In this document: piece after piece, positions 5,452 through 16,063 of the stretch
Layout: each line of letters begins with the position of its first letter
Numbering within the stretch: the first letter of the stretch is position 1
DNA from: a virus
Virus record (IMG/VR): IMGVR_UViG_3300020385_000077
Span: 1-20,951 of that record
DNA length: 20,951 nucleotides
Strand: one strand, 5' to 3'
Position numbers and translations under genes: made by a program
Notes under the pieces: generated by a model
Databases searched by the model: none
Seen by the model: the letters and a program-made list of their open reading frames with translations, nothing else
Told to the model about the DNA's origin: nothing

Positions 5452-6121
5452 GTTCTCCTGTTTTGTAATCGACGAACTTTTTGATGTACTCTGTGAGAAG
5501 TTTAATATAGTAACTCTTGTTTGTTTTTTCATAGACTTTGCATTCTCCGTTTTCGGCAACCATAATAGTAACAATTTTCTTGACTGGGATACCAGTCATT
5601 TCAAAATACATGCAAGCGTAAGCAGTCTCTTGCACGAAATAATTTTCAATCCATTCCTCGGGTTTAATCTTGGCCGAGGTCTTAAAGTCGATGACTGCAA
5701 GTTCTCCATCGTACTCTGCGATGCAGTCTACTCGTCCTGCGAGACCAAGATAGTCGCTATACAGCGACTGTTCTATAACATGTATGTTATTTATACGATC
5801 CAAATCTTTCTTTGCTGATAGAAGGAGGAACTTCGTAGCAGGAAGCATCTCAATATCCTTGATAGGAACATTCTTAATGTATTGTTCTACTGCATCATGG
5901 AACTTTGTCCCACGAAATGTAGACTCTCTAAGAACTTTATTTGCTTCATCGTTCCCAACTTTCTTTCTCCACTTAACGAAGACTTCACGGTTGTAGAAAC
6001 TTGTGACAGATGTGATAGATGGATACATCTTTCCTGACGGGACTTCATAGAAACGAGTCCCGTCAATCATGGTTGCTGTTAAATCAGTCTCACCTTTTAA
6101 ATTATCTAAATGGACAAACAT
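5435..6121 (-). CDS. PD-(D/E)XK exonuclease (Mgme1-like/RecB-like)
   Basis: The 228-residue nuclease of the PD-(D/E)XK superfamily is similar to the Mgme1-type exonucleases common in T4-like cyanophages. Visible motifs are RGTKFHDAVEQYI with a conserved His (residue 75), a Glu at 117 in VIEQSL, GLAGRVDCIA (Asp132) and AVIDFKTSAK (Asp145, Lys147). Together these form the metal and catalytic site. Its role is probably DNA end processing during replication, recombination or host DNA degradation. It begins at a TAATG overlap with phoH and overlaps gp33 by 17 nt, so it belongs to the replication operon. Confidence 0.83.
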   Translation of the reverse strand: MFVHLDNLKGETDLTATMIDGTRFYEVPSGKMYPSITSVTSFYNREVFVKWRKKVGNDEANKVLRESTFRGTKFHDAVEQYIKNVPIKDIEMLPATKFLLLSAKKDLDRINNIHVIEQSLYSDYLGLAGRVDCIAEYDGELAVIDFKTSAKIKPEEWIENYFVQETAYACMYFEMTGIPVKKIVTIMVAENGECKVYEKTNKSYYIKLLTEYIKKFVDYKTGEHGESS

Positions 6122-6888
6122 TAAATACCGAGTGCAATTTTAGTCATGATATAGTTACGGACAAATCCAGACCTAACAATATCATTAACGTCATACTCCA
6201 CACAGGTAAAGTCGTCGGTCATTGCTTGGATGATTTTCATGAAATCGAGGATTCCGTTTCGTTCGTTGGTCTTCACGAGGTCAGACTGTGCTGCGTCACC
6301 ACAGAAAACAATCTTACAGTTTTCACCAACTCTGGTTATTATACTATCAAGTTCATGAAAATTCAAGTTTTGCATTTCATCAACGATAATAATACAATTA
6401 TCCATGGTGGTTCCACGAAGGAATGATGTAGACCAGAAGCGAATAGTCTCCTGTGCCTTGAGTGCTCCGTAAAGCATCTCAAACTCATTCTCATCCTGCA
6501 TCTCAAACATATACTTTACCATATTCTTGTACGGAATCTGGTACAGTGCTGCCTTATCTTCATGATCACCTGGAAGGAAACCAATCTCACGAGTAGCAAC
6601 GAGAGAACGAACCACATACACCTTTTCATAAGGTGTGAATTGATCTAATACATCTTTGAGTGCAAGATAAAGAGCAATGAATGTCTTACCTGTACCTGCT
6701 GCACCATAAGCAAACATGTTCTTGCCTGCTTTGTATGACTCAAAGAACTTTTCTTGGTTATCTGTCAATGGTTTAATATCAACCATCAGATCAGAATTGA
6801 TTGGTTTCTTTCTCTTCAGTTTTCGGGAACTCATACTACCAATGCCACTAATGGCATCACTGTTTCCTTTTCTTTTTCTTGCTGGCAT
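6121..6888 (-). CDS. phoH: PhoH-like ATPase
   Basis: The 255-residue P-loop ATPase of the PhoH family has Walker A GAAGTGKT (residues 62-69), Walker B IIIVDE followed by MQN (166-173), RSLVATREIGFLPGD and CGDAAQSD. The N-terminal 35 residues are strongly basic (KRKG, RKLKRKK) and may contact nucleic acid. PhoH is widespread in marine phages. Its biochemical role is not established, although the family relates to RNA or nucleic-acid remodelling, and a Pho-regulon link applies only to some hosts. It starts 2 bases after the 82-aa ORF and is coupled to the exonuclease. Confidence 0.92.
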   Translation of the reverse strand: MPARKRKGNSDAISGIGSMSSRKLKRKKPINSDLMVDIKPLTDNQEKFFESYKAGKNMFAYGAAGTGKTFIALYLALKDVLDQFTPYEKVYVVRSLVATREIGFLPGDHEDKAALYQIPYKNMVKYMFEMQDENEFEMLYGALKAQETIRFWSTSFLRGTTMDNCIIIVDEMQNLNFHELDSIITRVGENCKIVFCGDAAQSDLVKTNERNGILDFMKIIQAMTDDFTCVEYDVNDIVRSGFVRNYIMTKIALGI

Positions 6889-6890
6889 AC

Positions 6891-7139
6891 TTAGATTTTA
6901 GTGATGTTAGAACCTGGGGTTTTCTTGACTTTAGATAGAACATCGTTCCATCCTGGATTCTTCTTGCGAAGTTTATCTTTCCATTCACCGACTTCACCGG
7001 ACTGTGGACAGGTAGATGGATCACTCCAATCTCTGTGCCAGTCAGGATTATCTGTACACCACTGAGACCATTCAGTGACACTCATCACGACTTCTTTCTG
7101 TTCGCCAGTCTCTTTATGGACTACTGGGTATGTTGCCAT
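6891..7139 (-). CDS. Conserved cyanophage protein of unknown function upstream of phoH
   Basis: The 82-residue ORF starts at MATYPVVHKETGEQKEV; the longer in-frame extension runs into thyX and is unlikely. The sequence is rich in Trp, Asp and Pro (WCTDNPDWHRDWSDPSTCP), with two Cys and one His that could bind a metal, and ends in KKTPGSNITKI. I recognise the pattern as a small protein usually found beside phoH in cyanophages, but know no function. A late promoter motif (AATAAATA, 7160-7167) lies about 20 nt before its ATG, so it and possibly phoH can be transcribed late. Confidence 0.72.
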   Translation of the reverse strand: MATYPVVHKETGEQKEVVMSVTEWSQWCTDNPDWHRDWSDPSTCPQSGEVGEWKDKLRKKNPGWNDVLSKVKKTPGSNITKI

Positions 7140-7159: not shown

Positions 7160-7167
7160 TATTTATT
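7160..7167 (-). promoter_or_regulatory. Candidate T4-like late promoter (AATAAATA)
   Basis: This matches the NATAAATA late motif of T4-like cyanophages, overlaps the thyX stop codon and lies about 20 nt before the ATG at 7139. The motif is short, so chance is possible, but its position directly ahead of a gene supports it. Confidence 0.5.
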
Positions 7168-7801
7168 AGACCCACTCAAGGGCTTCGGAAACAGTAGGGA
7201 ACTGTTCGATGAATACTTTCTTAGCATCCTCTGCGACTTGCATATGCTCCTTCTGAGTGCCGTTAGCAGTCCTCAGAGTTATGTAATGTATCCATGACCT
7301 ACATGAACCTGTCATGTAAATTTTAGTGGGCGTACACAGTGGAAGCACATTTCTTGCACATTCCTTTGCCACACCTCTTTCAAGCATCTGCTGATACAGA
7401 GCCATTGATGAATCAAACAGAGTCTGCATCTGAAGTTCCAAGTTCTGAGTCAGGAAAGGATCGAGATCATCAATAGAGTTTTGACGATTCTTTGTATCTT
7501 GACGGCGTAATTCAGGTAAAGGAATTTTATTACTAAGCAGAGATGAATCTGCATACCGTTGAGAAAATTCTTGATAGGTGAAACTACGGTGCCTTAAAAT
7601 TTGAGCCGCAATTGCACGGGTAGTATCAATCTCTAAAGTCATTGTAGACTGCTCAAAGACAGACCAATGATTATGCTTAATACAATAACGTAAAAGACCT
7701 GCATACTTATCATTTTCCTGGTTACTTGGGTTGGAAACCCTGGCGATATATGCCATGGTCTTTTCTGCGTCAGGAGTAACGCTTACTAGTTGTACTCTCA
7801 T
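7166..7801 (-). CDS. thyX: FAD-dependent thymidylate synthase ThyX
   Basis: The 211-residue flavin-dependent thymidylate synthase makes dTMP from dUMP using methylene-THF and NADPH. The signature RHRxxSxxxxSxR motif appears as RHRSFTYQEFSQRY at residues 70-83, with Thr where the first motif Ser usually is. Other family features are ARVSNPSNQE near the N-terminus and a C-terminal catalytic region with ARNVLPLCTPTKIYMTGS and RSWIHYITLRT. It supplies dTMP for phage DNA synthesis and complements the purine genes further along. It begins 3 nt after the stop of the 55-aa ORF, so the two are probably co-transcribed from the promoter at 7995-8023. Confidence 0.94.
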   Translation of the reverse strand: MRVQLVSVTPDAEKTMAYIARVSNPSNQENDKYAGLLRYCIKHNHWSVFEQSTMTLEIDTTRAIAAQILRHRSFTYQEFSQRYADSSLLSNKIPLPELRRQDTKNRQNSIDDLDPFLTQNLELQMQTLFDSSMALYQQMLERGVAKECARNVLPLCTPTKIYMTGSCRSWIHYITLRTANGTQKEHMQVAEDAKKVFIEQFPTVSEALEWV

Positions 7802-7804
7802 AGT

Positions 7805-7972
7805 TCAGTCGGGATAACCATCATCGTCTTCAAAAACCTCATCGTAGTCTCCTACAAGTGTAGTATTTCTTTCATATGTATATGCATCTATATCTGAGTA
7901 AACCTCAGACTCCAGAGCATCTACAAGAGATTTGAGATTACGTACAATGAGTTTTAATTTTTCTTTGTCCAT
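7805..7972 (-). CDS. Small acidic protein of unknown function upstream of thyX
   Basis: The 55-residue ORF runs from the ATG at 7972 (MDKEKLKLIV), with an N-terminal helix and a very acidic C-terminus (DYDEVFEDDDGYPD). The frame is open to 8023, but a longer start would be a TTG inside the terminator hairpin. The first gene after the compact terminator/promoter element, it is followed after 3 nt by thyX. It is not recognised; the acidic tail could mimic DNA or bind a basic partner, which is speculation. Confidence 0.65.
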   Translation of the reverse strand: MDKEKLKLIVRNLKSLVDALESEVYSDIDAYTYERNTTLVGDYDEVFEDDDGYPD

Positions 7973-7994
7973 AAACTCAATACCGTATGCTACT

Positions 7995-8031
7995 ATTTTA
8001 CACAAAAAAAGCGTGTCTGTCAAGACACGCT
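7995..8031 (-). promoter_or_regulatory. Fused terminator and promoter: -35 box forms the terminator loop
   Basis: On the minus strand an 8-bp perfect stem (AGCGTGTC with GACACGCT) encloses a 6-nt loop that reads TTGACA, a perfect -35 box (8018-8023). The stem is followed by a T run of seven, and exactly 17 bases after TTGACA comes TAAAAT (7995-8000), a good -10 box. The hairpin lies 7 nt past the stop of the 56-aa ORF and the -10 about 22 nt before the ATG at 7972. One element can therefore end the upstream transcript and start the thyX one. Confidence 0.75.
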
Positions 8032-8037
8032 GTAGAA

Positions 8038-8208
8038 TTAACCTAGTAATCTCCTACATATTCGTTTGCAACTGGACTGTGAGTCATCGCACTCTATTAA
8101 ACAATCAAAGTAGTCGTTTGTTAAATCTATTTCGTCATTGTATAGATTTAAGTTGTGTCCAATATTCCTCCATTCTGCTAATTGGTTACTTGACATAACA
8201 TTATGCAT
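8038..8208 (-). CDS. Small cyanophage protein of unknown function (56 aa)
   Basis: The short ORF from the ATG at 8208 gives MHNVMSSNQLAEWRNIGHNL and then an acidic helix with DLTNDYFDCLIEC and a Cys/Arg-rich end (SSCKRICRRLLG). It has four cysteines in the last 21 residues, which may bind metal or form disulfides. An alternative start is the fifth residue (ATG at 8196). The stop lies just before a strong terminator, as expected for the last gene of a unit. I recall similar small proteins in other cyanophages, but no function. Confidence 0.62.
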   Translation of the reverse strand: MHNVMSSNQLAEWRNIGHNLNLYNDEIDLTNDYFDCLIECDDSQSSCKRICRRLLG

Positions 8209-8331: not shown

Positions 8332-8358
8332 AAAAAAAGACAGGCAGTAAAGCCTGTC
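8332..8358 (-). terminator. Rho-independent terminator after the DUF4278 gene
   Basis: A 7-bp perfect stem (GACAGGC/GCCTGTC, extended by A-T pairs) with a 6-nt loop TTTACT is followed on the minus strand by a T run of seven. It starts 9 nt past the DUF4278 stop. Confidence 0.87.
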
Positions 8359-8366
8359 TTTAAAAT

Positions 8367-13496: not shown

Positions 13497-13770
13497 TACC
13501 AATACCCTCCGGGAACTTTTCGATTTCAGTCAATTCATAATCCCAGTCTTCCATGACTGTGTTAGCAAGGAATCTATCAGATAACATTTCAAGTTCCTTC
13601 TCAGCATATTCTCTAGTTTCTGCTTCTAACCAAATATCAACTACTTTACCCAATCTCAATTTCTTGATGTCTAACTTAGACAATCTTTTACAGGCATCTC
13701 TGACAGCATTACCAGGAGAATCATCAACCTGTGCTCTCAGGCGAATGAATATCAATGCTTTGAACTTCAT
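13489..13770 (-). CDS. purS: PurS subunit of phosphoribosylformylglycinamidine synthase
   Basis: The 93-residue protein matches PurS, the small dimeric subunit of FGAM synthetase (PurS-PurQ-PurL). It has KALIFIRLRAQVDDSPGNAV, KRLSKLDIKKLRLGKVVDIW and the C-terminal strand region with ANTVMEDWDYEL. It acts with PurL and PurQ, which are not in the window and may be elsewhere in the phage or supplied by the host. The ATG follows directly on the T run of a terminator and has no Shine-Dalgarno sequence. Its own promoter seems to lie at 13797-13825. Confidence 0.88.
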   Translation of the reverse strand: MKFKALIFIRLRAQVDDSPGNAVRDACKRLSKLDIKKLRLGKVVDIWLEAETREYAEKELEMLSDRFLANTVMEDWDYELTEIEKFPEGIGNE

Positions 13771-13796
13771 AAAAAAAGAGGGTCTTTAACCCCCTT
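13771..13796 (-). terminator. Terminator of the photosynthesis unit, touching the purS start codon
   Basis: On the minus strand an imperfect stem (AAGGGGGT against ACCCTCTT with one mismatch, 5-nt loop) is followed by a T run of seven that runs directly into the purS ATG. It would end transcripts coming from the 42-aa ORF. Confidence 0.7.
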
Positions 13797-13825
13797 AGTA
13801 TACCATATTCAGAGCATTCCTGCAA
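13797..13825 (-). promoter_or_regulatory. Candidate sigma-70 promoter of the purine operon
   Basis: TTGCAG (13820-13825) and TATACT (13797-13802) with a 17-base spacer. The -35 is in the end of the 42-aa gene and the -10 abuts the terminator hairpin, so a transcript started here begins inside the hairpin and would escape it. Confidence 0.6.
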
Positions 13826-15996: not shown

Positions 15997-16018
15997 AAAA
16001 CTTTACAATTGTAGAGAT

Positions 16019-16044
16019 AAAAAAAAGGAGGTCCGTAGACCTCC
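16019..16044 (-). terminator. Terminator after psbA
   Basis: A perfect 7-bp stem (GGAGGTC/GACCTCC) closed on the mRNA strand by C(TACG)G, a stable UNCG-type loop, is followed by a T run of eight. It lies 19 nt past the psbA stop and separates psbA from psbD. Confidence 0.9.
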
Positions 16045-16063
16045 CACATTATAGCAGATTTTA

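Follow-up and report, generated by a model that had tools for sequence, protein, structure and literature searches.

A 2014 article by Comeau et al. is reportedly entitled 'Composite conserved promoter-terminator motifs' and is said to deal, together with the work of Arbiol et al. from 2010, with the PeSL (promoter-early stem-loop). Two papers in which they are cited (PMC4503421, PMC3950731) present the PeSLs of T4-type phages as composite terminator–promoter motifs, and the first of them reports few PeSL-like features in the part of S-PM2 that it covered. Like a PeSL, the locus described here would close one unit with a stem-loop terminator and open the next with a same-strand promoter of the sigma-70 early type; a composite of this kind was found between units of a fragment that matches Synechococcus myoviruses in its DNA and its genes.

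The window, i.e., the whole stretch of DNA that was analysed, is a 20,951-bp IMG/VR virus record, from an ocean cyanobacterial virus. Its ORF list includes psbA-, psbD-, transaldolase-, purS-, phoH- and thyX-like genes; the identities of thyX, phoH and purS were obtained by profile search, while those of psbA, psbD and transaldolase are presumed from our own reading of the ORF list. The gene order past the element is phrog_878, thyX, a small ORF and phoH. The features of the locus, in the direction of reading, are as follows.

8038–8208, minus strand: upstream ORF phrog_665 (profile), whose transcript the terminator would end
7995–8031, minus strand: the whole putative fused terminator–promoter element (scans, fold and relatives' loci)
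8010–8031, minus strand: terminator hairpin AGCGTGTC-TTGACA-GACACGCT (terminator scan and RNA fold)
8031–8024, minus strand: 5' stem arm AGCGTGTC
8018–8023, minus strand: -35 box TTGACA at the hairpin apex (promoter scan; conserved in relatives)
8017–8010, minus strand: 3' stem arm GACACGCT
8004–8010, minus strand: T run (T7), also inside the promoter spacer; RNA from the upstream unit is predicted to end here
7995–8000, minus strand: -10 box TAAAAT, 17 nt from the -35 (promoter scan; relatives have TATAAT, TAAAAT or TAGAAT)
7988, minus strand: predicted transcription start, 7 nt past the -10 (from sigma-70 promoter geometry)
7805–7972, minus strand: 55-aa ORF phrog_878, the first gene past the element (ORF list and profile)
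7166–7801, minus strand: thyX, thymidylate synthase (Pfam Thy1; ORF list and profile)
6891–7127, minus strand: hypothetical ORF between thyX and phoH (ORF list and profile)
6121–6888, minus strand: phoH-like ATPase gene in the same direction (ORF list and profile)

Read from the sequence, the minus strand from 8031 to 7995 is AGCGTGTC-TTGACA-GACACGCT-TTTTTTGTG-TAAAAT. The promoter scan scored TTGACA-17-TAAAAT at 11/12 consensus matches with a spacer of exactly 17, as the preliminary description had it in placing TAAAAT 17 bases beyond TTGACA, past the T run; a -35 TTGACA and a TATAAT-like -10 therefore lie within the 16–18 bp spacing of sigma-70 promoters. The terminator scan called a hairpin plus T run at this very position, namely a stable, GC-rich RNA hairpin with the T run directly after it, as in an intrinsic terminator, and the claim that the folded RNA and the DNA promoter share bases is borne out by both scans marking the same letters. 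Folding of the hairpin gave -13.5 kcal/mol (z = -3.9, with no shuffle as good) and revealed that the outer T and A of TTGACA pair, resulting in 9 pairs and a UGAC tetraloop, so that the -35 box comprises the free loop plus its closing base pair. The loop had been described as exactly TTGACA; TTGACA does stand at the apex, but the free loop is UGAC. The 37-letter element appears to be a stop for one gene group and a start for the next, since the loop of the stop hairpin doubles as the -35 box of a promoter; we infer both termination and initiation from the sequence. A neighbouring terminator had been said to carry a -35-like TTTACT loop and a poor -10, and AACATT was indeed found there at spacing 17.

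8336–8361, minus strand: plain terminator with loop TTTACT and no usable -10 at matching spacing (scans)

Three perfect 12/12 TTGACA-17-TATAAT promoters also occur on the minus strand of the 21-kb window (17974–17946, 11194–11166 and 3950–3922), none of which sits on a terminator hairpin.

We consider it about 80% probable that the element is an intrinsic terminator fused to a host-type sigma-70 promoter on one strand, forming a compact insulated promoter. RNA polymerase travelling leftward through the upstream small genes would make the hairpin and release its RNA in the T run (8010–8004). As a duplex, the same DNA would be read by a sigma-70-type holoenzyme as a near-consensus promoter, in which TTGACA at the apex is followed by a spacer consisting of the 3' arm and the T run, and then by TAAAAT. 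The new RNA would start near 7988 and serve phrog_878, thyX, the ORF and phoH, with a predicted leader of ~16 nt that lacks the hairpin; as it would begin past the hairpin, it could not be stopped by it. The element would act as a one-way punctuation mark, which insulates and starts an operon within 37 bp, a fusion that fits because the 17-bp spacer holds a 6–9-nt arm, a 6–7-nt T run and a short linker. Compact insulation is the benefit that we infer from this arrangement.

The thyX loci of 80 relatives were compared, with the reservation, valid for all site counts over relatives, that these are not independent owing to shared ancestry. A hairpin-first scan requiring at least 4/6 matches in each of the -35 and -10 boxes found the fused layout at 47 of the 80 loci, with 35 distinct stems and a spacer of 17 in 44/47, which supports the proposal that a single element would stop the upstream transcript and start the thyX transcript. 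Selection independent of the hairpin, based on the promoter alone with a 17-nt spacer containing T5, recovered 42 thyX loci with 37 distinct sites, and the hairpin was present in 34/37; 1000 trials with swapped upstream halves gave 11.8 on average and never more than 21. Since GGGG and CCCC arms occur frequently, this null is a high one, and the test is therefore conservative. Over the 37 sites, the -35 columns T, T, G, A and C were kept in 37, 36, 33, 33 and 27, the T-run columns in 36–37, and the A and last T of the -10 in all 37, while the stem columns vary, the inner positions using three or four Watson–Crick pair types (counted by script, since a MAFFT alignment of 16 elements mis-gapped the arms). 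The stems thus diverge by paired substitutions, whereas TTGAC, the T run and the -10 hardly vary. Relatives that keep the stem and lose TTGACA had been named beforehand as evidence against the element: the comparison showed the reverse, with the loop and the -10 retained and the stem altered, but a minority, i.e., S-PM2 and a clade with GAAA or GTGA loops, do keep the hairpin without TTGACA, and most of this clade have a promoter just upstream instead. Some of the 80 relatives lack the element or have the hairpin only, and BLAST of the intergenic stretch matched mainly neighbouring sequence rather than the element. Because the layout is retained in many relatives despite changed stem letters, it looks like real, compact genetic punctuation.

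Compensation of a weak -35 by an extended -10 is established sigma-70 behaviour. Loops with fewer than 5/6 matches to TTGACA were accompanied by an extended TGn -10 in 11/16 cases and good loops in 6/28 (Fisher p = 0.003, a value obtained over relatives that are not independent). Since such compensation is characteristic of sigma-70, selection probably acts on the boxes in their promoter role.

The layout had been expected to recur, and it was found at other genes and in other viruses. A hairpin-blind pattern, TTGACA-N4-9-T6-N1-6-TATAAT, was searched in IMG/VR and GTDB genomes; among the matches listed, 35/123 IMG/VR sites bore a hairpin (null 3.1, maximum 8 in 500 trials), as did 2/117 sites in GTDB genomes. 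Among the matches listed, the hairpin was present on 21/35 cyanomyovirus-like contigs versus 4/46 unrelated ones, and a few hairpin-bearing sites come from contigs whose relationship to the phages sampled is distant. In isolates, the element precedes the phrog_878 gene in S-RSM4 (3664, minus) and SynMITS9220M01 (187364, plus), whose copies are syntenic, and in S-T4 (upstream of 89336, minus), where the stem is imperfect. The same position in S-PM2 holds a hairpin with another loop; the element was not found before the phrog_878 gene of Syn9, S-ShM2 or P-HM1, and the scan of Syn9, a cyanophage whose infection transcriptome has reportedly been described, yielded no fused element. The S-T4 genome (MH412654, 89172–89400) carries the phrog_878 gene and the element at 89 kb and thyX at 42 kb; as this pair lies 47 kb from thyX, the element is read as tracking phrog_878 rather than thyX, and the small gene and the element seem to move as a unit. 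The initial strict tie of the element to thyX was loosened on this basis. Other copies precede different genes; one, for instance, is located just downstream of the hsp20 frame of S-RSM4, and another precedes a helicase in S-ShM2. Only a minority of cyanophage terminators have the fused layout (0–2 per sampled genome), and the stems of the copies differ. The fused sites of S-RSM4 include one at 51394 (minus), and a relative with a different gene order (L522) has a fused GCACTCC-TTGAC-TGGGGTGC-T6-ATTG-TATAAT upstream of purS.

It is possible, and we put it forward tentatively, that the overlap is itself a regulatory device, in which a just-terminated polymerase would restart in place or block the site, the output of one operon would set the start rate of the next, and the coupled site would have been kept or remade many times with different stems. 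Two forms of such coupling may be distinguished, which predict opposite effects of upstream transcription. The first, which we regard as rather unlikely, is that polymerase terminated in the T run would stay over the promoter and restart with sigma, such that upstream transcription feeds the thyX operon. Once it has terminated at an intrinsic terminator in vitro, Escherichia coli RNA polymerase mostly stays bound to the DNA and is able to start again at promoters close by, an effect expected by the authors to depend on the terminator–promoter distance (PMC6978380); this distance is zero here, and the layout is retained across many stems. However, restart was shown in vitro with the E. coli enzyme only, conservation alone does not distinguish this reading from simple compactness, and the tandem copies of T4-type phages keep terminator and promoter apart. 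The second form, somewhat less likely again, is that upstream polymerases pausing in the T run would block the promoter, the thyX operon going up only when upstream early transcription falls. By geometry, any polymerase that elongates or terminates here has to lie over the stretch from the -35 to the -10, but a near-consensus promoter would compete well, and the occurrence of the layout before several unrelated genes is more in keeping with general punctuation than with a timed switch.

It is improbable that the site is a promoter only, with the palindrome acting not as a terminator but at the DNA level, as a hairpin that protects the mRNA or as a cassette for recombination. PMC4503421, citing Arbiol 2010 and Comeau 2014, implicates the PeSLs of T4-type phages in gene shuffling, and the joint placement of the phrog_878 gene and the element in S-T4, away from thyX, points in the same direction; yet a GC-rich stem followed at once by six or seven T is a textbook terminator, and as the stems vary from copy to copy, recombination would have only ~20 common bases to act on.

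Whether the fused terminator and promoter could arise from composition was assessed with hairpin and promoter scanners that apply simple consensus rules and overlook stems with bulges. When the window was dinucleotide-shuffled 60 times, each shuffle contained 0.17 terminators on average versus 4 in the real window, the latter counted by a near-identical scanner and not the same one, and the fused element was absent from all 60 shuffled windows at both the 9/12 and the 11/12 cut-off. Around 99 terminators from nine cyanophage genomes, strong promoters (at least 10/12) concentrate at two offsets: the -35 on the loop (9/99), with the bins adjoining this peak empty, and the -35 ~40 nt upstream with the -10 against the 5' arm (5/99). 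The same scan of RB49, T4 and KVP40 found a strong promoter at either of these offsets for 0/99 terminators and nine strong promoters 25–50 nt downstream of them, so that the fused layout stands at 9/99 in cyanophages versus 0/99 in these phages (p = 0.003); the looser 9/12 cut-off added one weak loop match in RB49. Furthermore, a TTGA-type loop occurs in 7/33 cyanophage terminators with a well-placed -10 versus 4/96 others (p = 0.006). Cyanophage gaps are short and AT-rich and T runs favour any -10 match, but the explanation that the fused layout is chance or a by-product of short intergenic gaps is scarcely credible and was rejected, being contradicted by the shuffles, the arm swaps, the null models and bacterial control of the hairpin-blind scan, the lack of fused copies among the 99 terminators of the T4-type controls RB49, T4 and KVP40, and the trade-off between box strengths.

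The second offset corresponds to another way of overlapping the two signals, of which the window holds two copies.

13770–13805, minus strand: second layout at purS, with TGG-TATACT at 13805–13797, hairpin at 13796–13776, T run, and ATG at 13770 (scans)
16018–16056, minus strand: second layout just past psbA, with TGC-TATAAT at 16056–16048, hairpin at 16045–16026, and T run (scans)

At purS, the start codon adjoins the T run and the 5' arm of the hairpin adjoins TGGTATACT; the preliminary description had noted a promoter box abutting this terminator, and TATACT lies directly against the 5' arm of the 13796–13776 hairpin. Among relatives, only the closest one (L470) shares this copy, and the purS element was consequently rejected as a conserved site. 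The copy at psbA has its extended -10 (TGCTATAAT) directly past the stop codon, touching the 5' arm of the terminator hairpin. Similar arrangements follow psbD in S-PM2 and S-RSM4 and a phosphate-transport gene in SynMITS9220M01. In the thyX operon of eight relatives (L025, L028, L030, L032, L036, L049, L072 and L079), TTGACT-like and TAGAAT-like boxes are present, and the -10 lies directly against the hairpin's 5' arm; upstream of their small ORF stands ATGGGAGG-GAAA/GTGA-CCTCCCAT-T7, or a similar loop, directly before the ATG, L079 having a stem variant. A GGAGG lies inside the hairpin of this clade, and a role in translation is therefore also possible. In the second layout, transcription would begin within the 5' arm, and the new RNA could therefore not fully form its own hairpin; both layouts, as read here, place the start where its own stop signal would be disarmed. 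P-HM1 (GU071101, ~157700–157763) has before its phrog_878 homologue a TGCCCTT...AAGGGCA-T7-ATG hairpin, whose long loop contains TATAGT; this may be a third form of promoter–terminator overlap.

In dozens of cyanophages, the bases of the fused element would carry two signals of different chemistry at once, a folded RNA and a duplex DNA, and each base change must therefore satisfy both. Such sites are natural test sites for the restart of a terminated polymerase at a zero-distance promoter, a process seen in vitro and not yet observed in vivo at the date of PMC6978380. For the engineering of cyanobacteria, they also provide the design of an insulated promoter of 37 bp, and they warn annotators that cyanophage terminators can hide promoters.

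Unlike the PeSLs of RB49, T4 and KVP40, which have their promoter arranged in tandem behind the hairpin, the parts of the cyanophage element overlap, and the loop is the -35 box. The seven strongest RB49 copies have their -35 29–46 nt from the loop centre, and the hairpins of RB49, T4 and KVP40 have TTCG-type or other loops, with the strong -35 boxes outside the loop. A promoter separate from, and downstream of, the stem-loop was not what the element showed, its -35 being in the loop, and plain membership in the PeSLs, with their tandem layout, was rejected because the RB49, T4 and KVP40 copies are tandem. The virion RNA polymerase promoters of phage N4 likewise carry promoter information within a hairpin; these, however, are extruded single-stranded DNA hairpins used by N4's own polymerase, whereas the T run and the -10 indicate a duplex sigma-70 promoter here. 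The pf16-type bidirectional or overlapping phage terminators (PMC5587285) also assign two transcriptional jobs to one palindrome, but there the palindrome additionally terminates transcription on the opposite strand, and here it would additionally initiate it on the same strand. In synthetic yeast terminator–promoter bifunctional elements (PMC10298055), one part similarly ends and starts transcription, but these are engineered eukaryotic fusions of unrelated signals. A literature search, in which coverage of subscription journals was incomplete, found no earlier report of a -35 inside a terminator loop. The terminator–promoter cassette is thus already known from the PeSL, and the overlap of the two, with the -35 box in the terminator loop, is, stated with due care, the new part.
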